Below are positions 4,736 through 53,509 of a stretch of 64,000 bases of DNA, in pieces (the first letter of the stretch is position 1; each line of letters opens with the position of its first letter). The DNA lies in assembly GCA_021234155.1 (NCBI GenBank), contig JAJEKV010000057.1, positions 62,001-126,000 of the forward strand, written 5' to 3'. The position numbers and the translations under genes were made by a program. The notes below the pieces were generated by a model, which was given only the letters and a program-made list of their open reading frames with translations, had not been told where the DNA came from and did not search any database. The DNA comes from Isoetes taiwanensis. Lineage: Eukaryota; Streptophyta; Lycopodiopsida; Isoetales; Isoetaceae.

Positions 4736-4739
4736 TTCA

Positions 4740-26549: not shown

Positions 26550-26869
26550 GCTTTTGCAAATCTATGGCGAGGGAAATTAGAAAATCTGCCAAAAATGGGC
26601 ATGGAGCCACAAGAGATGGAGAAGGTCATGGCAAATTTTCTTCGTGTGCCGTTTGGAAATGGGGCTTGCATTCCTCGTGTGCGGTTTGTTTTTTTTTTTT
26701 CGAAATGTTATGTAGAATTCTTTTTCTTTTGATTCTGGACGTTCAGGGTATTATCAGAGAGCCCTAGCCGACTTCCCAGCGACAACACCATAGCCAGATT
26801 TGCTCTCTGTTAGTGCCATATCCATGCCATTTTAGAAGACAACGTTACTCCTTCAACTCCAGAAACACG

Positions 26870-27235
26870 GATTAATGCAGGAATTGTAAGACTCAGTAAT
26901 GTAGATCTTTGCTCAAGCACAAAATCTGCAAGGTTTTGTTAGTTTTGCCATTTCAGCAGGAAGCACGATCCACAAGATGGGCCAGCAATTGCCTCTAGAA
27001 TTTGCCTCTTTCATGCAATCTTTTGCCATTTCAGGAAGCGCGCCTGGCCCACAAGGACCAAGGCAATTGCCTCTAGAATTTGCCTCTTTCATGCAATTGT
27101 TTGGTGAGTTTCAACATCGAACACAAGGCTGTGGATAGAATGCACCCCAATTTCAGCAAGTGCCATCTCAGGTCGCAGGAATTGCAGACTCAGTAATGCA
27201 GATGTTTGCCCAAGCACAAAATCAACAAGGTAACT
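26870..27235 (+). pseudogene. Gln/Pro-rich exon relic with internal duplications
   Basis: A frame around 27042-27230 reads like a real exon: a GPQGPRQLPLEFASFMQ segment, one in-frame stop, then VAGIADSVMQMFAQAQNQQ before a GT at the splice-like boundary aag-gtaact. Two parts are duplicated. The caattgcctctagaatttgc block occurs at about 26989 and 27063, and the gactcagtaatg..gcacaaaat block at about 26890 and 27187. Low-complexity Gln-rich content prevents family assignment; origin as a captured host exon is inferred. Confidence 0.4.
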
Positions 27236-27239
27236 TCTA

Positions 27240-28100
27240 GTTTTGCCACTTTGTAGAATCTTCATTTTTGTTCATCTATTTCTAACTTGCATTTTGTTCC
27301 TCTATTTCTAACTGGAAACAAGTTTTTGATAGCATCAGCTCAAGAATCTGGACGTCAATCTGTGCTTCAGCATTCTTTAACGTGAGAAGAGTGCTTATGA
27401 TAATTTCTACCACTATTGAAGTATATCTGATGCAGAACATGTCTGAGGTAATTGCTACATGATTTCTCCTTAAAATGCTATAGATGGTCAACTTGGTCAG
27501 ATTATGGAACCGCTCTCTGTTTCACATCCCAACTGCTCTGGTAGACGGGTTTATGTGCTCCAGAACTTGCGAAATTATGCATAGGATACTATTGCTTTGG
27601 TGTAAGTCATGGTGTGGAAATACAACTAAGGCAAACCAAGTGAAATGTATTCTCTATCTCAGTAAAATTCTTGCTTTTAGATCTGGTGGTTTTCCTCCCA
27701 CATTTAGCTGCTTTATTTGCATTTAATGGGCCCTTGAAAAGCAAAGTTGGGATTGAGATGGACAAAGTATGAAAAATGACAAAAATGTACCCAGTTGGAC
27801 GGGCTGGTATGGAGTCACTGGCTTGGTTACTTGATTTACATGGCCCTTTTTAATCCTCAATCAAGAGGTGGATGTATGGATAAATATGATATGCTTGATG
27901 TTGATTATGAGTAATCTTAATGGCCTCACATTAGTGGCATTATTGCCATGCAATGTTCTTTTTAGAAAGCTGTCGTATAAAGCTGAAGTTGCATAGCATA
28001 AAATGTATCTAAACAAACCCTTTCAGATTTTTTTTAAGAATGGTTAAGTTGCCATCATGAGGATTGGTTTAAAGGAGATCCAAAATCTACCTCATCAACA
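27240..28100. other. Non-coding, no feature seen
   Basis: AT-rich with short frames only. Confidence 0.4.
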
Positions 28101-28354
28101 TCCTATATTATAAAATTGTAATGTATGTCTGTCTTCAACCTCGCCCTAAAAATTGGGCGGTTCAGATTTAACCTAAGAATTGGACGACCCAGATAGCCCT
28201 AATTTCTTCTCGCTCACTTTTTCCACGGGTCTAAAGCAGATATGGCAGGGCAGGGGAGGGTCGCTGAGCAGGGCGATGGCAGGTGTGGTCTTCAGAACTT
28301 GGTGAATCTTACTATTGATAAAACTATGAACTCGCAGCATCTTCCGGCATTGAA

Positions 28355-28592
28355 ATCTCAGCTTTACTCCTTCACTTCCGGGATTTACTCTTTCACTTCC
28401 GGGATTTACTTCGCAGCCTTCCTTTACTTCCGATTTTTGTTTTATACAAGGGCTTCACCTCGCTATAGTATTTCCCCATCTCTGTGATCCATCCGAGGTT
28501 AGGATGCTCGATAATTAAGTGATTTAGGCTTCACTGTTTGTAGTACTTTGTCCATCTCTGTGATCCATCCGAGATTAGGATGCTCGATAATT
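28355..28592 (+). repeat. Local tandem duplications
   Basis: A ~21-bp unit (ttcacttccgggatttact) occurs twice at about 28370-28412. A ~90-bp unit (ccatctctgtgatccatccg ... gatgctcgataatt) occurs twice at 28476-28517 and 28552-28592. Confidence 0.85.
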
Positions 28593-29999
28593 CGTGACTT
28601 AAGCTATCTCGCCAAAAAAATAGCCAATCGAACTGTTTTTCTTTTGCGAGATTATGTGCATTTTCCATCTTATCATTTTCTCGGAGCTTTTAGCTTTTGA
28701 CAAAGGTGCAAGCTAACTTGCGTAAACATAATAAAAGCCGTGTATTTTGTAGTGGTAAGCTCATCTTCCCTCCTTTTGTTTCTACCGGACAATGTGGAGA
28801 TAATTTCTACATTTTGGATTTGCCCATGCTTGGCAAGATGGCGAACCGAAATTTTGTATTTTTCTTTTGCAGATTACATGGGGAAACAACAATAACATCC
28901 GTGGTATTTCACCTTAGATCATTCCAGAATCTTATATGTGTTGGTAGTTTGTTAAGATTTGTTGTTCATAAACTAAAGTTCAAACAATTTCTTGCGATAA
29001 TTCCATCCGATTATTATGACTTACCCTTTAACGATGTCATGAATTGCGAAATTTTGCTCTTTTCTTGAGAGAACAAGATGCTTTTGATTTAAAGTCTATT
29101 ATGTAGCCTATCACACATCACCGCATCAATGATCGCATGAAAGGTCTCCGCTACAAGTAAGTTCTCTTCTTTGCATTCTCGCGAGAACAAAGGGCAAGAC
29201 ATGCTAGCTATTTAGAAAAATTTTCAATTCCAGAAATAGGCATAAATTATCTTAGATGATGACATGTTTTAAATCCTAATTTGTTATTTTTGCGGGTTCA
29301 AAATCACTTTGTGGCATACACCACCTCTACCGTATGATATCGTTCACATGGTCATATATGAACTTCGGTTTAGACATCATGCGGTTCAATATAAGAAATG
29401 AGGAGTTGACTAAGGAATTGCGAAAACATCTACGACTTTAATGCATAAAGCGGTCTCATTAATATGAAACGATGGTATAGTTCTTATAGTAGGCATCGAT
29501 ATCCTCGGTCCTTGCGGTTCCCTCCAAGCAATTCTACTTGAGAGATTTTGAGGTCATTTAGGTTGTAGATAAATAAAAGGTCTAACTTGCTCACAAAATG
29601 CTTGCAACATGAACTTTGTAGATGGGGTGCTTAAATTTGGTGGGCATGAAGAAATAAAACATATCGTAAGCGGATGAACATGTGGTAGCAAAGCAGATTG
29701 GTATCTTCAAGGCATTCTCGCTTTACTTGCTTGAATTTTCTATATAACATGCCTCCCTTTCTTATCCCAATACCGAGGAAGGAGATTCCACGTCAATTTC
29801 TATCCATTTACTTGGGGGCTACCACAAATTCTTTAAAACTAATTAGAAATGTTCTTGGCCCTGCGATAAAAAACAAGTAGCTCTATGATATCAATTACCA
29901 AGAATTGTGAGTTTTACAATGCGGATATATTGTAAAAAGGAAGTGTCCTGATTATGATGAGATGGTGTGTCACTCAAACTTGAGAACATGATTATGTTG

Positions 30000-30300
30000 A
30001 AATTCCACTAACATTCTGCTATGCCAGGTCTTTTGAGAGCATGATTTAATGTTGAAATTCCTCCTAAGAACATGATTTAATGTTGAGATTCCACCAGTAT
30101 TCTTCTATGCCATGTTAGAAAAAAGATTGAACTTATTTTTCTCTTTGGCTTGGGACAATGGTAATTATGAATGGGAATGGAAGCATGGGACAATGGTTTG
30201 CTCACTCCTTAATGGGAGCAAAAGCGTCAAACAATGGCTTGCTTACTCCTTTAACAGAAATGAAAGCGTGGGACAATGGATTGCTCACTCCTTATCAATT
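30000..30300 (+). repeat. Short tandem repeats in Helitron-4
   Basis: A gggacaatgg-ttgctcactcctt unit of about 55 bp is present three times (30187-30292). A catgatttaatgttga..attcc unit is present two to three times (about 30040-30110). Confidence 0.8.
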
Positions 30301-30691
30301 CACAGTTGATAAAATTCTCTGTTACTATTGTTTTTTGCAACACACTTTTTGTTAATGGTTCAAAATAAAGCTTTGCTACAACATTACAATAGGCACATAT
30401 GGGATACATATATTCAAGATAATCCATTGACCCCATCTTTCATCCTTTGCAATGTTCATATTTTATTTTTTGTAATGTTTCACATTTAGTTAGCAAGACT
30501 CATGAGCACAAGTTTCATATTTTATGTACACACACAATTAACAACATCCAAGTATTTCTAAGGTGCAAAGTGCTTTTAAAGTAGCTATAGGTAAAGGTGC
30601 AACACACAATGAACAACAATATGCAAATGCACAGGTTCTAACATTTATAGGTTCTAGAATTATGCCCAGCAACGCTGGGCACCATTACTAG

Positions 30692-31875
30692 TCCTTTATT
30701 ATAAAATTTTAATGTATGTCTGTCTTGAACGACACTTTGAATTGGACGGTTTGGAGTTTTTTAGACACGTGGCATCATCTCCACCTTTTCTTTCAGCTTA
30801 CCTTTCTTTAGGGTTTCTCCTTCACGGCAGCAGTTTCTATCCAACCCTAATCTGCCTGTTGTTGAACAGAAAGGAGCCGCCAGGCTGCAAATCCTCTGTT
30901 GGGCGATGCAGGCATGGTGAAGGATGGGGATTCAACACAAAAAGGCGACAATCTGTTACCCTAAGAAGGCTGTGAGTTTGAGCAGACAGCTATGGCATCC
31001 ACCATGGCCAGGAACTAAATTAAAGCTGAGGATTCTGCAGTTTCAATGGGTCTGAGTTTTCCACATCTCGAAAGCAAAATATACATAGACGGCTTCATCC
31101 TGTTACATGGGATTCTGAAGGGAACCAGCTTCATGGCTCTCCGCGCTAGAAAGCGGCGGCTCTGCCCGAAAAACTTCGCGATGTCGATCTTTGATCTATC
31201 TAGCCTGAGCTTTTAAAGACGGAGGATACAATGCTATGCAGAGCTCCTTGGGAGTCTACGATCAACATGCCCTGCAGGTTTGTTTCCTTAATAGAAAATT
31301 TACTTACTTACTTCATGTAGTTTGGTTTTCCATTTTCTGAATGCTAACTTGAATTTGGTGCCAGGGCTTGGATTTCGTTATTTCTGAAGCTTCCAGTCAT
31401 GGCATCAAGCTCATCCTTTCCTTTGTTAATAACTGTGTTGACCTCGGTGGCCGACCTCAGTATGTTTGGGCAAGGTGGACATCCTGTTGCAGCTGTTAGT
31501 TTCTTTCGTGTGTTTACACCATGATTAGACAGCCATTATTCTTCTGTTTAAATAGTTGCAGGAGCAAATTGGATATACTATGTGTAACTGCCTGCACTAT
31601 GGACCAATTGCACATCACGCAAAATGTGCTCTATTTGTTACAAATTGTAGTAGAATGACTGCCCAGAAATACAAAGTTCACAGGAACTGGAAAACATACT
31701 ATGACAATTGATAGGACGAATTACCGCTGAGGAACTAAATTACCGCTGAGGAGCTATGGCTTTTGTTTTGTATCGAGGAATTTTTCTGGCTATGGCCGTC
31801 CTCTTGGAGCTGCCAGATGCACAGGCTTTGCCACATTGCGGATTGTCAGAGTAGACTCAGTTTAGACAGAGATTG
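30692..31875 (+). mobile_element. Helitron-5, left part, interrupted by element B
   Basis: Starts TCCTTTATTATAAAATTTTA right after the CTAG of Helitron-4, with the family's lead (aatgtatgtctgtcttgaac ... ttggacgg). Element B is inserted at 31875/43552. The right part continues from 43552, at least to the CCT and PP4c fragments. No 3' hairpin is seen before element C begins at 45988, so its end may lie beyond C. It carries a mannanase exon pair. Confidence 0.7.
31231..31492 (+). pseudogene. Captured fragment of GH5 endo-beta-1,4-mannanase
   Basis: Plant endo-beta-mannanases (GH5_7) hydrolyse cell-wall mannans. An exon end at about 31237-31277 reads SSLGVYDQHALQ. A GT..AG intron (31278-31364) follows, then an exon reading [37 protein letters not shown]. 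This matches the family block 'G.Y.. .FQGLDFVI.EA...GI.LILS.VNN..D.GG..QYV.WA'. The usual order QYV-WAR lacks one residue. Only about 55 codons remain; catalytic Glu residues are not included. Lying inside Helitron-5 with its intron kept, it was captured as genomic DNA rather than as a processed copy. Confidence 0.75.
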
Positions 31876-33580
31876 TGTGACGTCCCCTACTCGCATACGG
31901 TGCACTCACCGTATACAAACAGGAGTTCTTCCCCCATACCAGCTCCATGCCGATACAGGGCCCTTCACATAACACTGCAACCGTGACGGGTTCCAAAGGG
32001 GAAGAGTGAAAGGGTCATTGTACCCGCCTCCCTCGGGGCCTACCTAGTCTGCGGGCGTAAAACATACATGTCGATTATATAAAGAGCAACACATATACCC
32101 ACCCTTTCGGGTGGCACATCACATCTGCAAAAGACAATGATCAAGCACAATGCATAGAGGAAATCCTACCCAAGGCTCGGACACGGGGATGGACCGACAA
32201 GCTTGGGTCTCCGAGGTCATTGCGCATGCCGAATTCATGGCAATGGATTTGGGCGGGCATAAGAACATGGCATTGGGTTGTCCACTCCATCCGCCCCTCC
32301 CATTGCACACTTTGCGAGTAGGTTGAAAAGTGTTGGGACCCGATCAGAGTTCTCACGGAGGCATAGCCAAAAGGGCTATTCCCGGGTTGCATCTCCCGCC
32401 CGATGGGGCGGTAGGGATCACTCCCTCCGAGATCTACATGCCGACTCAAGGTGACTAGAGGGCCACCGCCCGTATTCAACTTGAACTCAATGGAAGGTCA
32501 TATTCACCACCTCACGCAGTGTCGAGCCCATGCCTTGCCCACACGCTAGCTGGCAAGCCATTAGACCTAGTCACAATGATCCCCTTAGCACTAACACACC
32601 ATAGGGATCGCTCAAGAGTCGAACACGAACCTCCTTATAAGCCGGGCCTGGCCCCTTCACCCACAACCGTGTGGCTCTTGTGCACAGCCGCATCTACAAT
32701 TAGTGCTAGAGAGGCTACTCTAGGAGCATCAACTATAAAGCTTTAGGTCTCTACCCCCTTCCCAATAAAAGGAGTTCACAGAGATACATCATCCATATAC
32801 ATCACGGAGAACTAAAAGAACAAGATCTAATCTATATCATAGAGTTAGGTTCTTTAGTTAGAATCTGCTATCTAGAGTTCTAGAGGGCTGCTATGGGCAA
32901 TTTAAGAGGCTAAACCCTCTTTGATTCGATGGCTGAAATGGGGTTTAGACTACTAAATTGCCTAAATACCCCGATCCTTGAGTTCCTCCTCCCGACCTGA
33001 ACTCGACCATCCCATTTGAAATGCTCGAATCAAGGAAAACTAATGATGCAGTTCTCTCGGGCCAGTGCTGGGAGGCGGTTTTGGCTCTTGAGGCAGCCCA
33101 AAAAAGAGCTCTAAAACCCTAGAAACGAAAATGGGCAAGTTAGGGTTCTCCTACTTAAATAGACAAGGGGTGGCTAGGGTTTCCAATTATCCCCTTTAGG
33201 CATGTGGGATAATTGGGAAAAGGGCCCACTTGCCTTTAAGGGCTAGGTGGCCAAATGTGCCATACATGGAAATGTGTGCACCCAAATGTGCTCACATGGA
33301 AATGTGTGCACATTAATGAATGTGTACATTGGAAAATGTGCACATTAATTGCACCTATGGGTATGGCCCACTTGGCATCAAGTGGCCACATGGAAATGTG
33401 TGCCCACATTAATGTGTACATTGGAAAATGTGCACATTAATACTAATGCACATTCTTAGCAAGTTGCCCCTAGGGGCTACCCACTTGGCTACACGCTGGC
33501 GTTACCGTCGGTCGGGTGGCGTGTACACGTGGCGGGCATATACGCCCCGGAGCGATAATCTTTGTCTTTGGAACGTCACA
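31876..33580 (-). repeat. Element B 3' LTR (1705 bp)
   Basis: On the plus strand it runs from TGTGACGTCCCCTAC to GGAACGTCACA. The neighbouring PPT-like sequence on its right shows it is the 3' LTR of a minus-strand element. Near-identical to 41838-43551, with differences concentrated at CAG/CTG/CCG positions. Confidence 0.9.
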
Positions 33581-33634
33581 TTCTCCCCACCTTGAAATGA
33601 TGTTTGTCGCAAAGATCGTGGTTCTCCCCACCTT
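33581..33634 (-). other. Polypurine tract, duplicated
   Basis: On the minus strand CAAGGTGGGGAGAA sits immediately before the 3' LTR (33581-33594). A second copy lies about 40 bp further inside (33621-33634). The first is placed to prime plus-strand DNA synthesis. Element C has the close relative AAGGTGGCGAGAA. Confidence 0.75.
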
Positions 33635-33689
33635 GGAATCTTCCTAACCTGCAATCAACCTGATGCATACGATATACTACTATAATACT

Positions 33690-34195
33690 TACACATTTAT
33701 TACGATTACCTTAAGATAATATTTTTAAATCATTATTACGCCATTACATTATCAAATAAGTTGTCAATTAAGTAACTTCTACTAAAATAAGGTACTTATT
33801 AGTTTCTATTATCACAACATTTAGTTTATCACAATTTAACACTTTCATATACAATTATTATTTAAGGTACTCTTCATTCCTTGCAACACATTCCAACAAA
33901 ATTTGTGTTGCAGGTCTTCGCACCTTAAAATCCTGCATTAATTTTACAATATCTATAATTACATACTTACTATCTTAATTATTAGAATTACTCTAAGGTA
34001 ATGTTTAAGACATTACTATTTCGTTATCCTATTAACTTATCACATCATAACTTAATCCACGCAAGGTAATTATTAACCTTACTTAATACAACATTTAAGT
34101 TTATCAAAGTTTATCAATTTCATACAAAATTTACACTTATAAGGTACCCTTCATCCCTTGCAACACATTATAACAAAATTTGTGTTGCAAGCCTT
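33690..34195 (-). repeat. 277-bp diverged tandem duplication
   Basis: 33690-33925 and 33965-34195 share an ordered set of blocks, the strongest being aaggtac-cttcat-ccttgcaacacatt and caaaatttgtgttgca (33864-33916 versus 34141-34192, offset 277). A weaker third copy may begin near 34795. Confidence 0.8.
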
Positions 34196-34199
34196 CGTA

Positions 34200-37100
34200 G
34201 TTCGACCTCCTTGCCCTCCGGAGCGCTCTATTGGCCTGCAGGTCGACACTACCTATTATTAATTATTACAAAAAAAATTTTGGTTATATGGTGACCACCC
34301 CACCTATCTACATGGATGCATGGCTAATCTCCCGGCGTAGGAAGAGGGTGAATCTTCCATTATGGCCGTGGAGACAGCACCTATATGCCTATATGCCGCT
34401 CATGCCTACACCCTAGTTGCCCAGCGTGGAGGATAGGTCCTTCCCGTATATGGGGCGTGAAGGCCAGATTCCTCCTATCAAAGCATATATGGGGCTAGAG
34501 GTGCTTTTCCTATCAATGCATTCCTCAATGACCTCCTTTCTCTCGAGGTCGTCTACTTCCGTGGGACAGAAGTAGACTTTCTAATCTACTTTCCACTCGT
34601 CCAAGCGGAAACGCGGTCATGCCTACATTGACATTACACCACGCCCTAGAGATCACCGTAGTGGTCTCATCATCGGTAACAACGCATGCAATCCATACCA
34701 AACATAGGTTGCATGCGTAGATTAATCTTAACTACACATGAAACTAATCTAAACATAAATCGACATGCCTGAGCCAATTTTTGCTGGCTCCTTTAATGCA
34801 TGTGATTAACATGATTACCCTAAGGTAATATTTATTAATTAACATTATCATAGTATCGGATACATTACTTCCGATAGTACAATTATATTTACTCTAAGCT
34901 TTGCAATATTTGACCACTTTTAGATCGCGATTATTTAAACAATAACCCTGATTTAGACCTATTGTTACATAGACAAGGTTTTAATTATCATACACAAGAA
35001 TTAGATGTGCTTCTTATTCTCTTCCTTGGGTCCTGCATTACCCTTGGAAGTATATCCCTAAGATGCACTTAAGTATATCCGAATTCTATTTTCTATTTAT
35101 ATTTATAAGGACCTATAGCTATCCTTGGAAGGAATTGCATCCTTCTGAAAGGATTAATTAACATGCTACTTCACATTATCGTTGTTATTTAACTTATTTC
35201 CCTATGATACATATCGTTACAACAATTTCTATGCGGTTATTAGGGTCTATATTTAACTTATCAATAAGACACATTAAGGCTTATAATACATGCGATACCT
35301 TTCCTAAGGCTAAAACGATCCACTCATTGAGCCGTCGAGTAGTTTGGAGGTGACTTGGTCGCTTCATTGCTCCCATAGTTTTGCTCCACTTCGTTGGTGT
35401 AGTTCACTACTACGTCAGTCTCTCACGTTGAAGGCCTCCTGAGCTATCTATCTATCTATCTTACGCTCTATTCGCTTCGGCCATTGCCGGAGTGAACTCT
35501 ATTCTACGGGTCAGTCAATTCGGTGCAAGTACGTTCAATCATAAGATTGAGCCCTCCCACTTTCTTCGAAAAGAAAATGGTCCTGCACCCCTTCAATGAC
35601 ATTGCACACAACGTCATATCTATTCTCTCCCCTTAAGAGGTTATACGCTTCTTACTTAGCGCATTAAGTTACTAGCCTTAGCTAACATATATAACCATCT
35701 AAGATGGATGCACATATTATGTTATCATTTATTTCAATATAATTATGGGTTATCTACTTAGTTAGAACGATTCTAAACCACAAGGTTTTGTCATGACGAC
35801 AATTCCTTTTGTCTCAAAAAAGACTATTTGATTACTATAATTCTTATTTTAGATGTACCTTGCATGTACTATTATTTTATTATTCTAGAGATTCCCCTTT
35901 CTTAGTTATTTAAACTCTTGGAATATTCCTACCAATCGAATTGATGTCATCGTAACAAGTTGGCCGGACTTGTTAGATTACTTCTTTTCTTTCGGTTGGA
36001 TTATTCTTTTGGAGATACTAGATTTATACATGGTCAACAATTATCCTAGTAGTGATTCCTTCTTAGCGAGGAGATCAATCTCACCAAGTGGTTTCAATAC
36101 GTTGGATGTCTGTTAACAATCGTGTATAATTTTAGTTATTCCTATGCGTCTCCTTCCCAATTGGGCAATCCTTTCAACGAGAATATCCGGAATTGCCTTC
36201 TAATCCCAATATGGATGTTACCATCCATACATTTAACCTACTAGGCCCCATGGCCTTAGATCTTTGAGCTTGCTAGAAGCTCATCCGCCGTTACTTTTGC
36301 TTGAAGGAGCAAGGTAACGTTCTTCCGAGTCGCTCGATACTTCAGTCTCCTTGACAGTGGCTCCTCTTTGATGTAGAGGTTGACTTTGTTCGCTAGAAGC
36401 CTCTTATTGCTGGTGGCTTGATGGTGTAGTTGATCATTTGAATCTTGCATGCCGCTTTTCAAATGCCTGAAAGTGGCGCTGTTGAAAGAGATCTTTCATC
36501 TTGAACTCTTTGTCTTGGCAGCTAAAGGATGACTCTGTATCCGATATTGTTTCTTCGACTCCATCGATGTCTCATACGTCGAGTCCTCTTGTCGTTATCG
36601 TGTTGCCCGAAGAGTGTTGACGATGTTGATTGCTTCACCCCTGCAACTTGCATGACATCTCTTCCTTTGATCTGTTATGCTATGGGAGGGATGGAATAAC
36701 AAGGGAACTATACATGCAAAACATATAGCTTACATAATTACAATTACTACTAGAGCTATTAGGTCCCCCTTGTGCCTCCCTTCGAGTTGCACACCTACTC
36801 CTTGGCAATGTCATCGGTGTTCCTCCCGGTGCAATGGTGTTGACGATCCTATTTGTACGTCAGTTCGTACTCCGGGGTAACTTGTTAATATACTTGGGCC
36901 TTCCGATGCTTGTCGGCTATGGCACAACCGCTTTGCATCACATTCTAACTAAGGTGTGCTTGTCGTTGATGCTTCGACATTTCAGTCTGCTTCTTGATCC
37001 TGTTCTCGGGCAATAATTGTTCCCCCCTTCATGATACTTGAAGCTATTTGAAGGCGTCTCTTGAGGCTGTGCGCGATTCCTTTGGCTATACTCCTCTGGA

Positions 37101-40100
37101 GTTGTTCTCTTCTGCAGTTGTTCTTTGAATCGTTCATCCTTGGGTTCACCAAGTTGCATGCAAGGCCGCGTGCAAGTCATCGGCTCGCCTCACCTAGTTG
37201 GTTCTCCATCGAGCTTCCAAACTTCTTCGTTTGATCCCCTCGATCACATGGCTTGGACGTTGTCACGTTCCACAGTGCTATGCCGTCTTCTTGTCTTGAG
37301 GTACCCTCCGGTGACTTTGATTGTGCTCGTCAGTTTTGATCCTCCTGTTGCCTCCTCAGGGGAAGCTCGTGGAAGAAGTCGGTTTGCTAGCACTTCTCCA
37401 TCTTTCGCCTTCGATCTTTGTCCTTCTATGCATTTCGGTCTCTTTGGCAAGTAAGGCATCATGACTCTCCTCCCCGATGGCTCCGTTTGTTCGGATGATG
37501 GATCCTTATCTCTGCGCAGCTTGACCCTTGCGTTGAAGAAGTACCTGCCTTAGATATACTCTTGTCGTTGAATAGCCTGGCTATTATCTTGAACTCTCTT
37601 TTCGCCGAAGGTGCTTCAGTTGCTATCCTTGTCGTTAAGGCGTCGAATGCTTCTACCTTGGGCGTTTGGCGTGCCACATGTCGGAGAGATATGGTCGGCT
37701 TCTTCTCTTCTAATTATTGGTAGGAGTATCGTGACGCCGTCACCTAGTTGTTGAAGGCATGTCTCCTCATCGCGGTGCCTTTCGTAAGTGCATCTCCATC
37801 TAATACACGTGTCATAGCGCATCACCCTATATTACCACAAGGTGGGATTATGGTCGTCGAGATGTTGCCTTCTTAGTTGGCTCGTTGATGTCGGGGTGTT
37901 CCTCCTTCCATTGTTGAGGCCACTCATGTCATAAGTTAGGTCAAGTCTTTGCCACTTTGCTACAAGAGGTAGTGTTGCACCCCGACGATGTCCCGGTGTG
38001 TCGTTGATGATCTTGACATGATCGGTGTTGTCTCTTATTCTAACATTGGGTGCACGAGCTGTCTTCTACTTGAGGGCGCTCCCAAGTGTTTGGAGTCGAA
38101 GGTTTGCTTGGGCTCTGGTCGTTCTCCCTCGTACTTGCTCTTCCATTTTGATCTTGGGCTATAGTTGTGCTTCCTCGCTTACTCCTTTGGTAGTCGAAGT
38201 GAAGGAGCTTCCTGATCTAAGCGCTAAATCCGTAAAACATGACTTTAAACTCATGTTTCTCCACTATATATGTGGACATCATTTACATTGGGATTTTAAT
38301 TCATCCACTTTTGCAAAACAACTACGAAGATCTACCTAATTATTTATACTCCTTTAAGGTTTCCCCTCCTTGATCGCGTTTGATACTTCGGTTTTGCTGC
38401 ATCTTCTTCGCTCGGTTGACTCGGGATTCCTTGAGATGCTTTGCTACTATTGTTGAGCTTAAATTCGATCCGAGCTGATCACCTCAAGTTCTGCGAAGAG
38501 TGTTCGCCGATGTGATCCCTTGAAAAAGCTGCTCCTCCTTATTGTGTAAGTTCGTCGCGAGGAGTGCGGTGACCGCTCACGTCCCTACATGCGGTGTGTC
38601 GTTGCAAGATTGCTGATTTGCGGTGCCATTGATCGAGCTTGAGTAGGGTCACCTGGCTGTTGCAGTCGGGCATTCTTGAATATCTTCGAAGCTCTGAGAT
38701 CGTGGTCGATGGCAGGTGTTGTCATTCCTCCGCATGTTGAATTTACGAGTCGACTCACGTTTGGGCTGGGCTTTGCTTTATTCCGAGGTGGCTCTCCCCG
38801 GCACGGAAGTGTGGTCATCTCCATTGCCCTACCATGGCTCCTTCTGGTCGCCTTTGCGTGATTTGTACCTGCTGGCTAGGTCGTCTCCTCCGTCCTTTGG
38901 GTCCTAACCATTCGAGTCTCGCACTCCTTGGCTGACGTAGTAAAGCCGTCCTTCCTTTGGTTTCTAGGTGTTCCTGGGTCCGGAATTCCTGTTTGAGCAG
39001 AATATTCTCCTCCTTGGTCTTGCCCCTAGTGCTTCTGAGCCTTCGAAGTCGGAATTGTTCCTTGATATCGTCTCCTCTCTCTCATGGTCTCCTACCTTTT
39101 TGGAACCGATGAAAGTTCTCCTGGCTGGTGCAAGGGAGCTGGAGGCTCATCTTGGTCAGCCTTTAGGTGCTTTGTGGTTGCCTAGCTTGGTTACTCCTTT
39201 TGTTGACGTTGGCGCTTTGAGCTGCTTGGGGCCGCAAGGTCGCGGGTGATCTTCCCTCCGGTTTCTATCTCTCCCGTTGTCGCCATGAGTTGTCTCCTCG
39301 ACGGAAGATTATGCCCTCTCGCCCTAGTTCGTGATGCTAACGCGACATCGATGCCTAACATCTTCCCGTACGTATTTTTTGTTGTCTCGCGTTCTTCCAT
39401 TTGAAACTCATGTGCGCCGAGTTGGTGAAGGCGTTGAGATCCTCTTTTCGATGTGAGCTCGTGGACGGGTAGCCGGAGGTTGACATCTAGAACATTCTTG
39501 GTGCCGTTGGTTACCAATATTCTTCCCATTTGATGGAGATTGATGATAGGCGGTGGTGTCCTGTTCTACTCGTTTGTCGGTTGAGGTGTTTGTCATGCTT
39601 CCCTCTCTTGGGTCCCGCCTTTTTTGGTCTCCTCTCCTTATCTGTTTGTACATCGGCCGGGACCTTGATGTCTTCAAGGAGTTGCGCCCTTAGCTCGCCT
39701 CTGTGGCTCGGGCCCCGTCCTTCAAAAGCAACGCCGCGGTGTATCCTAGAGTCTAAGAGTCTACTTGAAGGGCTCTCCTACAATATTCTCGGGCTCTATA
39801 AGCAAGCAAGATGGCTCGAGCAAAGATTACTAGAGACATATCTATAATTTACAAGTCTATGGACATTAGGGCGTGTGGTATGGCATGACATAAGGGTTGT
39901 TTTGCAAAGCCCTCATGGTGTTTGAGGTATACTCTAAGGTCCCAGCAAAGTTGGTTTGGGGGTCCAATCTCTACACATGGAATGACTTGGGCAGCTCTAG
40001 GCTCTAGCTCCTTTCTAGGTATCCTGGCAATAGGGAGTGTCAATGTGGCGGCTATATAAGTCAAACTCTATTAGAAGGACACAGAATTAGGTCAAGGTTT

Positions 40101-40400
40101 ATGCCTTTGGCTCGAGCAGAGGTGGTGTACCAACAGTTGGACTTGGGTTGCTATGCTAAGGTCTAGATGACTATAACAAAGGGGTGTTCCTGAGCACTTC
40201 TACCTAGGAGTAAGGCATCAGCTTCGAGCCGAGATCAATACTTGCGAGCTACTAATGGGGTATGCTTCTATTTACAACAAACCACAGTTTGGGAAAACAA
40301 TTCAAGGGTTTGAGCAATTTTGGTCATTTTGAGATGGGGTTTGACATTTCTATCCTAATTTGAGGTCATAAATGGATTCTAGGCTGTCTAACGGTCCTAA
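34200..40400 (-). other. Element B interior without recognisable protein domains
   Basis: The 36.2-39.8 kb part has higher GC and looks codon-like. Minus-strand frames of 60-112 codons are rich in Lys/Arg/Gln/Thr (for example 39191-39529 and 37459-37677), as expected of a gag-like or linker region, but none shows a known motif. Opposite-strand frames are similar in length. 34.8-36.2 kb is AT-rich. If this is a decayed gag-pol, frameshifts have erased it beyond recognition by eye. Confidence 0.4.
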
Positions 40401-40462
40401 CGCAACAAATTTCAGGCAATTTGGAGCTCTGTAGCTCAAGTTATGGAGGTTCAAAATTTGGA

Positions 40463-40532
40463 GGTCTCACACGTTGCGCCCAGACCGATTTTGAGAATGT
40501 AGAAATCTGTCCTGGCGCGACGTGTGAGACAT
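40463..40532. repeat. Leader palindrome, copy 1
   Basis: Arms GGTCTCACACGTTGCGCC and GGCGCGACGTGTGAGAC pair around about 33 bp that itself contains a weak aga..tct pairing. Three copies of this unit are found in the element-B leader. Confidence 0.9.
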
Positions 40533-40661
40533 GGGTCCTAATTGGGCTAGGCTTACTCAATTTAAGTGATCTAAGGCTGTAATTCCACTAAACTCATCGA
40601 GTTAGGCAGAATTGACCCCTTACTTGGTCGATTTGGAGCTGTTTTGGGCATTTTTGGGCAT

Positions 40662-40730
40662 GGTCTCACACGTTGCGCCCAGCCCGATTCCTAAAATCTA
40701 GAAATCTGTCCTGGCGCGACGTGTGAGACA
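40662..40730. repeat. Leader palindrome, copy 2
   Basis: Same arms as at 40463. The loop differs at scattered positions while both arms are conserved. Confidence 0.9.
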
Positions 40731-41263
40731 TCGTCTCAATTTTGCTCAAAAGCTCCAATTTGACTAAAACAAAAGCTAGAATTCTATAACTTAACTTAAT
40801 TAAGTAACTTTATACAGTTATAATTTACTCTAAAACACGTTGTATTAAACAAATTTTATCATTTACGAAATTAATAAGGTTCTCCTTTGATATGATTGGT
40901 AAGTGCATATCTTTCTTCATTAGAGTTACTCCTTTGGTGTGTCTTTGTCGGTTGTTGAGTCTTCAAAATGTTGGACCAGCTTCTGCTCTGCTGCTTCTTG
41001 ACCCCTGGCCTCCCGCTCTCGTTCTGCCCTCTCCTCTTCTTGTTTCCTTCAGCCTCCTTGGCCTCTGGCTGTTTTGCCTTGTCGAGGGAGTCGAGTGGTC
41101 TGTTTGGTGCGCGTCATGTCGATCGGAGGCTTGGTGTCTATCAGGATGATGACTCTATCTAGCTTAAGGGTCTTGGTTCTAAGTCTAAGGCTTGGCCATT
41201 AATATTATCTAACATTATTACAGCTTAAATCTAAATAAGGATTATAATTCAAACACAAACGAT

Positions 41264-41355
41264 GCCCGCCCTCAGTGGTTGGCACGGGGGGGTTTGGGGG
41301 GGTTCGGGGGGGTTCAACCCTTTGGGTGGGAGGTTCAATTCCCGCTACTGTGGGA
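41264..41355 (+). other. tRNA-like segment with G-runs
   Basis: CTCAGTGGTTGGCAC resembles a tRNA D-arm/A-box and GGTTCAATTCC is an exact B-box, with a stem-forming gggag / cccgc pair. Between them are three runs of 6-7 G separated by TTT/TTC (about 41285-41312), able to form a G-quadruplex. It is not a usable tRNA; a tRNA-derived SINE head or degenerate tRNA relic is likely. Confidence 0.4.
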
Positions 41356-41479
41356 ATTCTTTTAAGATGAGGTTTAAATAGATTAGAAAGCTAATCTAGC
41401 TAATTCCTAGGCTGAAATTCGAATTACTAAGTTACTTTTCTAAATTTTTTTTGACTTTTTAAACTGTTTTCCGATCAAT

Positions 41480-41546
41480 GTCTCACACGTTGCGCCCAGA
41501 CAAGTTTCTACATTTTAGAAATCAGCTCTGGCGCGACGTGTGAGAC
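41480..41546. repeat. Leader palindrome, copy 3
   Basis: Arms GTCTCACACGTTGCGCC and GGCGCGACGTGTGAGAC again conserved, with a more diverged loop. Nearest to the PBS of the three copies. Confidence 0.9.
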
Positions 41547-41574
41547 CATCCTATTTGGCTCACTAATTTTTTTC

Positions 41575-41712
41575 TTTAACTGCTACTAATTCACTTTAAC
41601 TGCTTCTTTAACTGCTATTAATTCACTTTAACTGCTACTAATTAACTTTAACTGTTGCTAGCTTAGCCACTTTAACTGCTACTAATTAACTTTAACTGTT
41701 GCTAGCTTAGCA
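41575..41712 (-). repeat. ACTTTAACTGCTACTAATT minisatellite
   Basis: About six units of 20-26 bp (ctttaactgctactaattaa and ctttaactgttgctagctta variants), about 115 bp inside the PBS of element B. Confidence 0.85.
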
Positions 41713-41825
41713 TATACTACAAAAATGAGAAAAAATTTCCCATTTCTCGAGGTTTGAGGATCCTATCAAGTTAGTACTACTGGGAGCATGGTCGATTAAC
41801 TTTGCTCTTGGTCTCCAAGAACATT

Positions 41826-41836
41826 GCTCGATACCA
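41826..41836 (-). other. Primer-binding site of element B
   Basis: The minus strand reads TGGTATCGAGC, directly beside the 5' LTR. This is the initiator-tRNA(Met) site TGGTATCAGAGC with one small deletion or error. It fixes the element's orientation. Confidence 0.8.
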
Positions 41837-41837
41837 C

Positions 41838-43551
41838 CGTGGACCCCTACTACCGCATACTGTGCACTCACCGTGTATACAAACAGAGTTCTTTCCCATA
41901 CCAGCTCCATGCCGATACAGGGCCCTTCACATAACACTGCAACCGTGACGGGTTCCAGTGGGAAGAGTGAAAGGGTCATTGTACCCCGTCTCCCTCAGGG
42001 CCTACCTAGCTGCGGAAGCGTAAACATACATGTCAGTATATAAGAGCAACACATATACCCATCCTTCTGGGTGGCACATCACATCTGCAAAAGACAATGA
42101 TCAGCACAATGCATAGAGGAAATCCTACCCAAGGCTCGGACCGCGGGGATGGACTGACAAGCTTGGGTCTCCAGAGGTCATTGCAGACAGAATTCATGGC
42201 AATGGATTTGGCTGGCATAAGAACATGGCATTGGGTTGTCCACTCCATCCGCCCCTCCTGTGCACACTTTGCAGAGTAGGTTGAAAAGTGTTGGGACCCG
42301 ACTGTAGCCCGCCGGAGGCATAGCCAAAAGGGCTATTCCTGGGTTGCATCTCCCCAGTTCCGATGGGGCAGGTAGGGATCACTCCCTCCAGAGATCTACA
42401 TGCTGACTCAAGGTGACTAGAGGGCCACTGCCCGTATTCAACTTGAACTCAATGGAAGGTCATATTCACCACCTCACGAGTGTCGAGCCCATGCCTTGCC
42501 CACACGCAGTGGCAAGCCATTAGACCTAGTCACAATGATCCCCGGTAGCACTAACACACCATAGGGATCGCTCAAGAGTCGAACACGAACCTCCTTATAA
42601 GCCCGGTCGCCCCTTCACCCACAACCAGGTGTGGCTCTTGTGCACAGGCCGCATCTACAGTGTGCTAGAGAGGCTACTCTAGGAGCATCAACTATAAAGC
42701 TTTAGGTCTCTACCCCCCTTCCCAATAAAAGGAGTTCACAGAGATACATCATCCATATACATCACAGAAGAACTAAAGAACAAGATCTAATCTATATCAT
42801 AGAGTTAGGTTCTTTAGTTAGAATCACTATCTAGAGTTCTAGAGGGCTGCTATGGGCAATTTAAGAGGCTAAACCCACTTGATTCGATGGTCGAAATGGG
42901 GTTTAGACTACTAAATTGCCTAAATACCCCATCCTTGAGTTCCTCCTCCTCGACTGAACTTCGACCATCCCAACAAATGCTCGAATCAAGGAAAACTAAT
43001 GATGCGCTTCTCTCGGGGCCAGTTCGGGGAGGCGGTTTTGGCTCTTGAGGCAGCCAAAACGAGCTCTAAAACCCTAGAAACGAAAAATGGGCAAGTTAGG
43101 GTTCTCCTACTTAAATAGACAAGGGGGGTGGCTAGGGTTTCCAATTATCCCCTTTAGGCATGTGGGATAATTGGGAAAAGGGCCCACTTGCCTTTAAGGG
43201 CTAGGTGGCCAAATGTGCCCACATGGAAATGTGTGCACCCAAATGTGCTCACATGGAAATGTGTGCACATTAATGAATGTGTACATTGGAAAATGTGCAC
43301 ATTAATTGCACCTATGGGTATGGCCCACTTGGCATCAAGTGGCCACATGGAAATGTGTGCCCACATTAATGTGTACATTGGAAAATGTGCACATTAATAC
43401 TAATGCACATTCTTAGCAAGTTGCCCCCTAGGGGCTACCCACTTGGCTACACGCGTTGGCATTACCGCCGGTCGGGGTGGCGGTACGCGGCGTGGCGTGG
43501 CGATTACAATATACGCCCCGGGGCGATAATCGTTGCTTTGGAACGTCCGCA
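41838..43551 (-). repeat. Element B 5' LTR (~1.7 kb)
   Basis: Matches 31876-33580 throughout. Its outer end reads GGAACGTCCGCA instead of GGAACGTCACA and its inner end TGGACCCC instead of TGTGACGTCCCC, so both terminal motifs are altered. Confidence 0.85.
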
Positions 43552-43810
43552 TTGGGCTTGCAGTATTGGCCTCAGCATGGCGTGGAGGTTCCAAGAATGG
43601 ATCGGCTTCCATGAATGCAGCTTATTCCATGTATTTTCTGTGCTTATTCCCCGTTTCGGGCTTGGAAGATCCGGCTATGGCAATGCAGCATGGGGTATGG
43701 CAATGTAAGATCCAGCTATGGTATGGTATGGTAAGAGGTGAGTTTTCACCTCTTTTGACATTTTTTTAGAGTTCTTTCATGTCTTCGGCATACTGAAAAT
43801 TGTGTTACAG

Positions 43811-44049
43811 GCTTCATTCATTGGGGCTATAGCTATTGCAGATTTTGTGAAAACAACGTTAGGTCCAAAGGGAATGGTATATCATACATTTATTGGCTGT
43901 TTATTATTGAGCATGCAGGAGTTTCTTAACATTCTTCTTTCTGGTTATAGGACAAGATATTGCGGTCCACAGGAAGAGGCCACACTGTTACTGTCACAAA
44001 TGATGGAGCAACGATTTTGAAATCTCTTCATGTAGATAATCCAGCAGCC
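43811..44049 (+). pseudogene. CCT2: Captured fragment of chaperonin CCT beta subunit
   Basis: CCT-beta is a subunit of the cytosolic TRiC/CCT ring that folds actin and tubulin. Exon 1 (43811-43876) reads ASFIGAIAIADFVKTTLGPK then GM, followed by a GT donor. After an AG at 43949-43950, exon 2 (43951-44049) reads [33 protein letters not shown]. This is the N-terminal equatorial ATP-binding region of CCT-beta, including the GDGAT-type loop equivalent TNDGAT. The frame is open across both exons, but the rest of the 530-residue protein is absent and the next bases run into PP4c sequence. Confidence 0.9.
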
Positions 44050-44087
44050 CCAGGAAGGAAGCTAAAGGGGCAAGTCTTTTCTCGATC

Positions 44088-44425
44088 CATGAAAGTCGTC
44101 AAATAACGCAGGTATAAATTGCTGTGCATTTGCATCTTTATGTTGTATTTGTGAACTTATGATAACATTCTGAAGTTCATGATTCTTTCAGGTTTATGGT
44201 TTTTATGATGAATGCTTAAGAAAATATGGATCTGTAAATGTCTGGCGTTACTGCACTGATATTTTTGACCATCTAAGGTCTGTACAATTGGATTATCCTG
44301 GGCTTCTGTATGAAGTGGTATAAAATAATTTTTGTGATTACCCTTGCAGTCTTTCAGCTTTGATTGAGAACAAAATATTCAGTGTGCATGGAGGTCTTTC
44401 CCCTGCCATAAGGACAATTGACCAG
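44088..44425 (+). pseudogene. Captured fragment of PP4 catalytic subunit (PPX)
   Basis: PP4c is a PP2A-family Ser/Thr phosphatase. Three exon parts are present. HESRQITQ (44088-44111) contains the catalytic His and Arg of the GNHE motif, though the Gly-Asn before it is lost. [17 protein letters not shown] and [10 protein letters not shown] follow (44192-44277). The last exon reads [20 protein letters not shown] (44350-44425). All junctions keep GT and AG. The [13 protein letters not shown] and [10 protein letters not shown] signatures favour PP4 over PP2A, which has other residues there. The fragment follows CCT-beta after only 38 bp in the same orientation, giving a potential chimeric transcript, although the frames between them are not clearly joined. 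Confidence 0.9.
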
Positions 44426-45096
44426 GTATGTTGCTTCTGAAGTGATGGCATTGTTTATTATGACACATAGCCTAGGTGATGAAAAAGAACACATAGCCTA
44501 GGTGATGAAACCTTGCCTAGATGATGAATCCATTGGCATTTTATATAATTGGTTATCCAATGTTGTTTTGTGATATTTATTTACTTACTGATAACATTTT
44601 GCAATGAATCTCCAAGTCATTTATGAACCTTCTTGCACATGGTGAAATATGGTCGCCAAGTTTATTTTAGATCCCATGTATTTTAACATTTTTATGTGAG
44701 TCCTTGAGGGCAATAGGGTGCGCACATCTCATAAGATATAATTACCAACTTATTTGTTGAGAATCATAGATTTTATAAGACTTATTCGCTAATTTAATTG
44801 ATTGTTCATTCTTTTTCTTAGCTCCCATGTGCTTTTAGTAGTTTTGTTTTCAATGTGATAGTGGTTCTTTTCTTCTTGGGATAGTATTTATTTTCTTCTT
44901 TTCAATGTGATAGTGCACTTATCTACTTCGTTCTTGACATGATATATTGTTGAAAGTCATTGTATTCGTCATGTATTAAAACAAATTGATTAGCCAACAA
45001 TCGCAGTCTAGATACCAAGCCTAAATAAAAATTTAGCAAGTCTTACCTTGCTAAAGCCTTCTGGTGTGCCTTTTGCTAGTTTTTCCTCTCTTTTTT

Positions 45097-45912
45097 TTTT
45101 TTTTTTTTAAGTAAGAGACGGTTTTGTCATTAATTATAAGATCTCAAGTACATAGCAAAGTGTATGCTTTTGCTAGAAGAGCATACCAAAATATGCATGT
45201 AAAACCAACAAGGAGTTTCATAATACAGTATGATCTCTAACGATATAAAGTATGACAGTCAACAGCAAATAAGTAAATATCTTGAAAGTATAGTTTCTTG
45301 AATGAAGAGAAAACCGAGGTATTCCATCATGTTGAAGAGATCACTTGAATTATCAACTTCCCCAAACTGTAGAGTCCCGCCAACATGTTAATCCACCAAA
45401 AACGTAAGCTAGATCAAAATTAAACAAGAGCAGGGAGCATGCTTTGTTTGGGAAGCAAGAAGGAGGTGATATTCGGGACTCGAGAAAATAAAGACTGAAT
45501 TATAGTAGGCATTAAAAGCATCAGTGGATCCAAAGATATAATGATCAGGGGACCAGTTATTGCTATAGAATAGGCAAAATTTGTCCTTGTTCTCCAAAAG
45601 GATCAGCAAGGATCCATATAGATCAGCAAGTAGCTTGTGATTGTAGTACATAGTTCTATACCTTGTCATCTGTGTCTCAGTAAGTATGAAGTTGTGGTTT
45701 GACAGAAAGGTCCACAAGCAATGAACCTGCACTACCTCCCTGCAGAAGATGGCAGCCCACAAATCCTCACTTTCCTTTTGATATCTTCTGTGTCCTGTTC
45801 TCATAAGAAATGATTCCATCGAGGTAGCAATACTGTTTTGCATAATCTGATCTTTAGCTTGTTGACTGAAAGGCGAGATGTCATCAAATTTGCTTACCAC
45901 GCAGGAATTCAA
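45097..45912 (-). mobile_element. Possible internally deleted LINE, minus strand
   Basis: On the minus strand the segment ends ...ATGACAAAACCGTCTCTTAC, then TTAA and a poly-A (45097-45110). This resembles plant L1 LINE 3' ends. About 300 bp upstream is a 167-codon frame (45912-45409) with a stretch FLSNHNFILTETQMTRYRTM that looks like the 'LTETK' part of an AP endonuclease domain. If so, most of ORF2 is deleted. The assignment rests on short motifs only. Confidence 0.4.
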
Positions 45913-45987
45913 GATATTCTAGGATCATCAAGCAGGAAAAAGTTAGAATCTATAGCATTCAAAATTGAAGTAAATGTCCCTTATACT

Positions 45988-47582
45988 TGTGACGTTCCAC
46001 ATATTTATACGCATATTTAAGTATAAATACGTGACACGTCACTATGAATAATTAATGGCACATTAATTATTCATAAGCTAAGGTTAGCTATGTTAATAAT
46101 TAAATTATAAAGGTGGAAACCTAACCAAAACCCTAATTCGAATTTAGGGCTTATCCTAATATTAAAAAGGGCTAAAATACCAAATTAGTTAATTATTGAC
46201 ATGCCACCTGGCCCAAATCGATTGGGCAAGGTAGGGTTTCCATTTTGGACACCCAAATTAGGGCTTTTGTGCCCCAATTCGAATTGGGAGCAATTGGGGA
46301 TGGAGGAGGAGGAGCAGCAGCCAGGCACCCTTCAGCAAATCGAGATGGAGCCATCCCAAGCCCGATTCGACGGTTAGTCTGTAGCTTAGCTGTGTTATTT
46401 GTAGGGTAGCGCCCCTGTTGGGCACTTGTTGTGTGTATTTCTTCTATTTCTCTGTGTTCTCTATGCTTTACCTGTAGGAACTAACCCTTGATTGCAAAGG
46501 TGAGTTCTCCTTATCTCTGATTCTGTACTTGCTCTTAAATGATGGATTGATAGTTCTTTGCATAGTATTACTCTTGAAATGGGGGAATTAAGGGGGGTAG
46601 AGACCTCTGAGCCCATGTATTGTAGTATGCTCCTAGATAGAGCCCTGTATTATTCCCATTAGTTGCGGCCTGTGCACAAGAGCCCACCGGGTCATAGATG
46701 CTATGGACCCGCTTAGCACCGATAAGGAACACAAGGTGAAGTGGTTGGTGGGGTCTTGCACGAACATACAAGGCTCCTGAGACTCCTATAGTGAGCTAGG
46801 CCTGATAGCCGGTCACGTAGAGGGCCGGGTATGGGTCTGACACTCCCTGGGTGTAGAGGTGTGACCCGTATGGGGCACCTTGCACTTTGAGTAGATTTAG
46901 GGCGAGTAAGTCGGGTACGGATCACGGGGGTCGTCGCGGATGCGCACGTTCTCTCTAGCTCACCCATGGAACCACCGTGATTCCGGAAGGGGACGCTTCC
47001 CGACCTGCCTCATCGGACCGGACTTCATGAACCCCAGAGTAGGCTCGGCAGTGGTGATGCCTCGAGCCCGCTCTCCTGGAAGGCTATAGCGGCGCCATAG
47101 CGTGGAGTTGACCCATCTGCAAAGTGTGCAACGGGAGGGGCGGATGGAGTGGACAACCCTAGCCAATGTTCTATGCCAGCCAACGCCATGTCAAGATTCG
47201 GTCTGCTGATCTCTTGAGACCTAGCCGTCAGTCGATCCTCACTGGAGTCTGAGCCGGGGTAGAACCATGGGTTTGGGGTGTTTTCTTAGTTTTAGATGCA
47301 TATTCTTTGCCGTTGGTATTTGGATGGATGCGCCACCCTTCGTGGTGGTTATTTATATGTGATTTATGCTGTGTGCTAACCCTTGTATTCACGCTTCCGC
47401 GACGTAGGAGCCCCATTGAAGGCGTGGGCCGAATGACCCCTTCGTGTCCTTCTCTCGGGCATCATATTATAGATGGCCCGAAATAGACGGAGGGCCCTGC
47501 TCATGGCGAGTTGGTCGCCATGGGAGGGGAAAGTCCCCGTATGTATACGGCCGAGGGTCGTATATGTTCAGGGAGCGTCACA
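45988..47582 (+). repeat. Element C 5' LTR (1595 bp)
   Basis: From TGTGACGTTCCACATATT to GGGAGCGTCACA. The first about 718 bp align to 62815-63532 with no mismatch or indel that I can see. After 46705 the two copies differ at many CAG/CTG/CCG sites. Confidence 0.9.
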
Positions 47583-50622: not shown

Positions 50623-51343
50623 TAAAATTATAGTGTATGTCTGTCTTGAATCTCGCCCTAGATCGGACGGCTCAAATCAAAGGCTAGATTGATCAGACGG
50701 TCTAGAGCTAAAGTTCAGTTTTTGTGGTAGAGAACTGATGGGTTAGGGCATCGGCTTGCCTTCGGATTTCGCATCCGAGGCAAGTAACTCCGGAGGGGAT
50801 CTGCTATCTTATCTCTGTTTCAAGGGTTTTATTACATGTCTGTTTAGGGTTTAGATTTAACGGCAAAGCTCGCAGCCTTATGTTTCGCATAGCCACTTCC
50901 ACGAACTGGAGTGATCTTTCATCAACCAAGATGGCCTCCAGACCTCTTTCGGCCAGTTAGGTGACTCTTCTGCCATGCCAGGCCACGATTTGCACAGTTC
51001 AGCATTCAAGGTAAGAAGGCAGTACTTCTTGAAGCTTCTGTGTTTAATTTTTAGCTTCATTCATGTCTTTCAGGCACCATCCGTTTCTTCAGATTCGGCT
51101 TCACATACTCTGAATGATTCATATCTGAATTCATAGAGCTGAATTCATGCCTTAATGCGTGAGCGAATCTGAGGGTCGAAATTTTGAAGTAAGTTCTTAA
51201 TCTCTTAATGTTGCCTTGAACTACCTAGGCTTGCCTTGAACTGCCTATTCTGGTGGCTTGGCTTGGTTTTAACCGCCTCTAAATGGGAAGGATTGATCAA
51301 CCAATGGGTTTTCATAAGCAGGCTGGTGCTATGATTGCTCTGG

Positions 51344-51687: not shown

Positions 51688-52033
51688 GTAAGATGTAGAC
51701 CTTACCGTTTTTCTGGAACCATGTCAGATGCATGCACACTATCTTAACGAATAAATATTAAGATATAGCAAGGTATAGCGATTAACAATCTACTGGTGAA
51801 AGACACTCTCGAATGCAAGCATAATAAAAATACAAACATGGAACGATGTGGTCAGAGCAAAGAAGTTGAAATAGACCTCATTTTGTAGAACATGGTTAAA
51901 GAAAAATATGTGCTTTGACATTGTCAACGATTTGCCAGTAAAGTGTGTTGCTTTGTGGCTCGATTCTGTATTGCAGTTTATTTCATTCTCTTATGATTTA
52001 TTTTAATTTAGCAGATTCAAAATCAATTATTAT

Positions 52034-52712
52034 TATGTGGACAAACAATAACAATGAGTGTACTACCTTGCAGATTTGGAGAACGAAAGTGATGATTTGT
52101 TATAAGTAGTTCCAAACTGAACACGAGATAAACATGTTTCTCTTAGCACTGCAATAAACCAGGTTTTGTGTCCAGCATGCCTCAAATTTTGAGTCTCTCT
52201 TTCAGGGTCAATATATATAGAAGTTTAACTGCAATGTGCCCATTGCAGAATTTTTGTCTAAGCTATTGGCATGAGAAAGAAAATGTATGGTTCTATCTGC
52301 TCTTTCTTCCCTTGCATTGGCACCACAATTACTTGGTTGCCACGTGAATTTTTGAAGAAGGCTGATGAGAGAAATCCAGAGATGCAACCCCTATGCCCCT
52401 GCGGCCCACATCTAGAGCTAGGTTAGCATCATTTGTCAATGGTAAAGAAGCCATGGAAATAATTATGGTCGTGCTTCCACTTTATCGAAATTTCGATTAT
52501 TGCTACAAATTGGAGAAGATAGAACCAGCATTGTCTACCAATGATATGAGAGGACAATAAATCTTCACAACAGCTTAGCATTTGCTGCAGTTTGAAAAGC
52601 TGAGCTAAGCAGTAACAAATGAGGTAATATGTTGTAATATGTATGATATAATGAATGATGGTCAATCCTTTGTTATGTGGACAAACAATAACAATTGAGT
52701 GTACTACCAATG
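52034..52712 (+). repeat. 35-bp direct repeat pair
   Basis: ttatgtggacaaacaataac and the following a-gagtgtactacc occur at about 52034 and 52673, 639 bp apart, within Helitron-7. Confidence 0.8.
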
Positions 52713-53356: not shown

Positions 53357-53509
53357 CTCTAACAATAGAGCAAGGATGCACCATGAAACAAAAGGGCATA
53401 TATATGAATATTTCATAGGCAACTTTAATACAACTCTACCAATAGAGCAAGGATGCACCATAAAATAAAAGGGCATATACATGAATATTTCATAGGCAAC
53501 TTTAATACC
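53357..53509 (+). repeat. 77-bp tandem duplication
   Basis: Units start at ctctaacaatagagcaagg (53357) and ctctaccaatagagcaagg (53434), more than 90% alike. Confidence 0.9.

Follow-up and report, generated by a model that had tools for sequence, protein, structure and literature searches.

How did pieces of three unrelated genes, introns included, come to lie in one orientation in what appears to be a single transposon of Isoetes taiwanensis? They occur in a 64,000-nucleotide stretch (hereafter the window, C1064:62001–126000), which we compared with 1.66 Gb of genome sequence; coordinates refer to the window unless a contig is named, and C and L numbers denote contigs and opened loci, respectively. 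The best explanation is that a Helitron beginning at 30692 (Helitron-5) carries pieces of mannanase, CCT-beta and PP4c genes, is non-autonomous and 3′-truncated, and belongs to a family in which some transposase-encoding relatives hold CCT-beta or PP4c sequence near their 5′ end. Taken as a whole, with both the observed elements and the order and mechanism proposed for them, we consider this explanation very probable.

Three gene fragments in one split Helitron

All three fragments lie on the + strand and retain introns with intact splice sites. In the mannanase piece, GT/AG sites bound the intron between an exon end at 31277 and an exon start at 31365; its 60-aa translation matched the plant mannan endo-1,4-beta-mannosidase 9m20 (E 1.7e-16) and had no match in Pfam. 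Homology to CCT-beta spans 43770–44049 (exons 43811–43876 and 43951–44049), with TCP-1 beta as best PDB match (E 2.6e-20) and Pfam family Cpn60_TCP1. The phosphatase piece (44087–44469; exon parts to 44111, at 44192–~44277 and at 44350–44425) belongs to Pfam Metallophos, and its nearest solved chains are PP2A-C (E 6.4e-28); the narrower name PP4c is a putative one, taken from the family sequence. These matches are too strong for chance and, together with the splice-site check, agree with the initial annotation, which had placed the three fragments here in one orientation. It had spaced CCT-beta and PP4c 38 bp apart; the homologies themselves are separated by 37 bp.

The 5′ end of Helitron-5 (30692–31010, +) was recognised in a scan for family ends by its TC and family-conserved terminus, TCCTTTATTATAAAATT, and is common to the copies on C1056, C948, C1052, C926, C1105, C1100, C1032 and C393. 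It immediately follows the CTAG that closes an upstream Helitron (Helitron-4, 28102–30691, +; 5′ end near 28102, hairpin and CTAG at 30691), with which it is arranged head to tail. The boundary between A and TC expected at insertion is clear in C1056, C926, C1105 and C1100, whereas the window copy abuts the Helitron-4 CTAG instead; in C393, C948 and C1052 the exact start is blurred by a pyrimidine run. Relatives with both ends (C393, C948, C1052 and C1105) close with a 3′ hairpin (7-bp stem, one base changed in C948) and CTAG, followed in each by T. No terminal inverted repeats with arms at 30692 and 44470 were seen among the 25 listed of 34 inverted pairs of at least 40 bp, shorter arms not being searched. 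The ends are of Helitron type, unlike those of Pack-MULEs or other terminal-inverted-repeat elements.

The mannanase and CCT-beta fragments are now separated by a long terminal repeat (LTR) element at 31876–43550 (no strand assigned). Left (30692–31875) and right (43551 onward) parts of the Helitron were searched separately in the genome. Four siblings (C393, C1056, C948 and C1052) have an empty site, in which 31875 is joined straight to 43551 and the sequence runs unbroken across ...GACAGAGATTGGGCTTGCAG.... The inserted element has two direct repeats about 9.96 kb apart (31876–~33593 and ~41837–43550; the 3′ LTR departs from the 5′ LTR in its final bases) and is flanked on both sides by ATTG, which is single in the four empty sites, the arrangement of an LTR retrotransposon with its short target duplication. 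No open reading frame (ORF) of at least 120 aa was found within it, shorter frames not being searched. The empty sites and the ATTG-flanked insertion together make the two halves one Helitron split later, as had been proposed. Divergence between the LTRs was rejected as a measure of age: the Kimura two-parameter distance is 0.074 overall but patchy, with 27/140 and 24/86 differences in the end stretches and 0/149 elsewhere.

It could still be argued that the sequence from 43552 onward is another element or host DNA, its fragments adjacent by chance, given that a 3′ Helitron end is missing from the window copy, which becomes host-like from 44482. The direct join of 31875 to 43551 in four siblings, and source genes that lie on other contigs, make this extremely improbable.

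Sources of the captured segments

The CCT-beta fragment (280 bp) differs from C919:6691843–6692122 by 4 substitutions and no gaps, and CCT-beta exons continue on either side at C919. The PP4c fragment differs from a minus-strand locus on C1072, with exons before and after it, by 5 substitutions in 382 aligned bases and by two gaps, one of them a 27-bp tandem unit. Both fragments are therefore 98.6–98.7% identical to their source genes over aligned bases. As homology extends through the introns, capture occurred at the DNA level, as first suggested; the search for parent genes also disposes of the idea that the CCT-beta and PP4c pieces are remnants of local genes. A PP4c-like match at C1056:11065665, and weaker PP4c matches, were also listed in the genome search.

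The linker between the two (44050–44086, +) is a shortened one. Its join to CCT-beta recurs, with small changes, in C1052, C926, C1056, C948 and C1100, and in the last four of these the linker is longer. The window copy has lost two internal stretches, whose joins share 2 and 4 bp respectively, and 37 bp remain. The closeness of CCT-beta and PP4c is thus secondary, through internal deletions.

The mannanase piece has a different background. It is part of a 684-bp cassette (31031–31714) that also occurs on C1066 (97%) and, at 92% identity in either case, on C279 and C457; the greater part of its mannanase portion is present on C963 (98–99%). Helitron ends lie on the same strand at all four loci, both of them at L019 and one each at L029, L030 and L031. 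A Helitron on C974 (L034) has the first 174 bp but no mannanase, so that the cassette consists of a Helitron-derived start (31031–31203, +; with mannanase in L019, L030 and L031) and a mannanase-derived part (31204–31714, +). Because the cassette is found in other Helitrons and its start in one without mannanase, the most likely template for the cassette is another Helitron, judging from these sequence relationships. The initial account of captured fragments therefore stands for a single Helitron and for DNA-level capture, and is corrected for mannanase, which most likely arrived by way of another Helitron.

Both borders of the cassette carry a 19-bp motif (tandem unit AATTACCGCTGAGGAACTA). 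One rotated copy forms the left filler (31011–31030, +), with two bases changed in the window and none in C393, and is missing at this position in L011, L012, L013, L015 and L016. Two copies form the right filler (31715–31758, +; tandem repeat 31719–31756), which is absent from the sibling junctions. We read the repeated motif as templated filler from break repair, following the filler-DNA model in the cited passages of PMC6544945.

A fourth captured segment lies next to the right filler and is interrupted by the LTR element (31759–31875 and 43551–43772, +, with homology to 43773). It corresponds to one 330-bp stretch on C1053 (93% identical to the C1056 copy) and on C490; both matches are copies of a repeat of ~0.86 kb, and no Pfam family scored above cut-off for the segment. 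At least four sources have thus contributed to the element, which is a mosaic.

Among the loci found, all three gene fragments occur together only in the window copy. Two of the genome searches scored every candidate (17/17 and 23/23); the left-half DNA search scored the best 40 of 329 candidates, the mannanase search the best 40 of 71 and the RepHel DNA search the best 40 of 421. Additional Helitron copies, or a nearer mannanase gene, may lie outside the scored candidates.

Several observations weigh against the explanation given above. Among the best 40 of 71 candidates, no mannanase gene outside Helitrons exceeded 78% identity. The match on C1066 was ruled out as a source gene, since it lies between Helitron ends; the best opened match outside Helitrons, at C1018:17606463 (78%), is colinear through the intron, and its exons are putatively assigned to mannanase by their motifs. 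When part of this gene was scanned against Pfam, with X at stops, no family was returned. A 3′ hairpin and CTAG of its own are missing from the window copy. Between the C1100 copy and the CCT-beta gene there are 29/269 differences in aligned bases plus 7 gaps, against 4/280 and no gaps for the window copy, and a single shared capture predicts similar distances. We tentatively read the C1100 divergence as a noisy or patchy consensus because parts of its linker are 98–99% identical to other copies and the window's LTR pair is patchy too; the discrepancy may also stem from a second capture, or from conversion templated by the gene.

Finally, the mannanase-bearing siblings on C393 and C526 lack CCT, and mannanase and CCT are joined only in the window copy. 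This bears on a rival account in which the window copy is a recombinant between siblings, with a mannanase-type left half and a CCT/PP4c-type right half. C393 and C526 share 31031–43710 with the window and then continue into other DNA, including in C393 a BASS fragment (sodium/bile acid symporter family; PF01758, E 1.2e-9) with homologous DNA in C526. Identity between C393 and C526 is itself uneven, at 92% over L009 (C393) 4156–4900 and 99.8% over the last 525 bp, a sign of mosaicism. No crossover point is distinguishable, however, the shared middle being nearly identical in both kinds, and we regard a recombinant origin as a tentative and rather unlikely alternative. It differs from our preferred explanation, in which a CCT/PP4c element received the cassette, in one inferred step and otherwise overlaps with it.

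Transposase-encoding relatives and coding potential

Relatives with the same 5′ end carry RepHel homology. On C1105, a Helitron of ~7.4 kb with both ends (51869–59271) holds a fragment of the CCT-beta leader together with an open frame of 903 aa that contains Helitron_like_N (PF14214, E 6.9e-62), its later frames being broken in this assembly. On C926, a longer CCT-beta piece (L020 4335–4660 and 4803–5122) accompanies a 755-aa frame with PIF1 and Pif1_2B (PIF1 E 1.6e-28). In both, the domains lie downstream of the shared 5′ end and the CCT-beta fragment. In the C1100 element, which was located via its CCT-beta piece, RepHel homology is preceded by both CCT-beta and PP4c, and in C1032 it is preceded by rearranged PP4c. 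A single unbroken full-length transposase frame was found in none of the four elements opened, and the 3′ ends of those on C926, C1100 and C1032 were not found by end pattern.

Among the listed loci (best 40 of 421 RepHel candidates), C1105 and C926 were the only ones to which CCT-beta pieces could be assigned. There the segment starts in the gene's 5′ leader, holds the first introns and the start codon, and lies upstream of RepHel in the same direction; in C1100 a later part of CCT-beta occupies the same place. This arrangement raises the speculative and improbable idea that the segment is a borrowed expression leader for RepHel, for example through intron-enhanced transcription from a housekeeping gene. 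Were this so, capture would have been selected within the transposon itself and the three-gene copy in the window would be a by-product.

The initial annotation had also proposed a chimeric transcript, and the fragments could in principle form a working chimeric gene, their splice sites being intact and their direction the same throughout. Under native splicing, however, the CCT frame crosses the linker and meets a stop within the first exon of PP4c; the frame that is open across the PP4c exons is a different one (in the splice model the second PP4c exon was one base too short, with no effect on the position of the CCT stop). No in-frame joining of CCT to PP4c was obtained with the native splice sites, and the CCT piece appears to fall ~14 bp short of its exon's likely donor site. 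The mannanase piece has TGA at its left edge (31206–31208), as do the C1066 and C393 copies, and 11.7 kb of LTR element separates mannanase from CCT. The stop in the first PP4c exon and the one at the mannanase edge weaken the chimeric-transcript proposal. A protein-coding CCT–PP4c chimera is not supported by these reading frames, and we consider a working chimeric gene highly unlikely; the fragments are most likely carried as cargo, without protein function.

The lost 3′ end and comparison with known Helitrons

The true 3′ end of Helitron-5, which the initial annotation had hoped to locate, is no longer present. PP4c homology stops at 44469, and from 44482 the sequence matches C1019 (98%), C1103 (91%) and C1052 (89%), which run on together upstream of that point into sequence missing from the window. 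The intervening bases (44470–44481, +) mark a deletion junction and are copied from the adjoining host DNA, in the manner of templated end joining. Sequence to the left of Helitron-4 (26638–28099) matches C1019 at 1.6 kb from the point equivalent to 44482, and C1019 has no Helitron at the site matching Helitron-4 and Helitron-5. On these grounds a single deletion probably removed the 3′ end of Helitron-5 together with ~1.6 kb of flank, a size that assumes no insertion specific to C1019.

An end near 50614–50623 was ruled out as that of Helitron-5, as it lies inside a second LTR element starting near 45986. The latter occupies 45986–47582 and 62813–64000 and continues into L025, its LTR pair showing 33 differences in 1568 aligned bases; it sits in a unit recurring at C1064:133722, 145141 and 153600. 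To its left, a 167-aa ORF (45409–45912, −), with nothing above cut-off in Pfam, lies in a dispersed repeat (~45091–45975) that has a T-run at its left edge and many genomic copies at 74–88% identity.

In the proposed history, CCT-beta and PP4c would have been acquired first and the mannanase cassette later, followed by the internal deletions; insertion behind Helitron-4, the LTR insertion and the 3′ deletion would have come afterwards. Capture would have taken place during repair of breaks within the element, by copying a gene or another Helitron, and spread would have depended on RepHel supplied by relatives.

Stepwise capture is described for maize Helitrons, as are internal losses and putative autonomous elements that bear fragments (eight in ZmhelA1, two in ZmhelB2; PMC3288121). 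Helitron-5 resembles them in holding fragments of several loci in one element, in its series of related copies with internal losses and in having putative autonomous relatives with fragments; it differs in its genes and plant, and in that one copy shows two source genes, cassette borders, an LTR empty site and a lost 3′ end (PMC3288121). Chimeric Helitron transcripts have been reported in maize (PMC4528327). As in the filler-DNA capture of insect Helitrons, captured segments are internal, their junctions bear short signatures and their acquisition can be ordered, but here the likely template for mannanase is another Helitron and the filler motif stands on both sides (PMC6544945). Pack-MULEs are likewise DNA transposons with host gene fragments, whereas the ends here are of Helitron type and no border terminal inverted repeats were seen among the listed pairs of at least 40 bp (PMC13317346); the same review, from 2026, includes Helitron capture among its plant examples. 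A further parallel comes from the Mothra elements of rice, which hold a captured fragment and whose mother element has no RepHel (PMC4683698).

Head-to-tail Helitron arrays are mentioned for plants and bats (PMC5876387), and the window likewise has the CTAG of one element followed directly by the TC of the next, although junctions alone were seen here. Such junctions occur in the window at 30691/30692 and 19479, on C526 (L010) at ~1258 and, as a variant, near 50614. The strict pattern of CTAG followed by the 5′ end had 7 exact matches genome-wide, including the window's, and 0 in a reversed control. Beside a Helitron end, 19597–21510 consists of ~1.9 kb of purine-rich AAAAGG-type repeats, and a similar tract follows the C1100 element.

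Stepwise capture, fragment-bearing autonomous Helitrons and filler repair are already published, and the present element is another, well-preserved example of a known process. The mechanism of Helitron gene capture has been described as far from clear in the cited part of PMC6544945. The Isoetes taiwanensis element bears on that mechanism as one more case, without a new principle: a single genome offers a readable record of how a multi-gene Helitron was assembled, in its source genes, transposase-encoding related forms, shared cassette, border filler and later damage.

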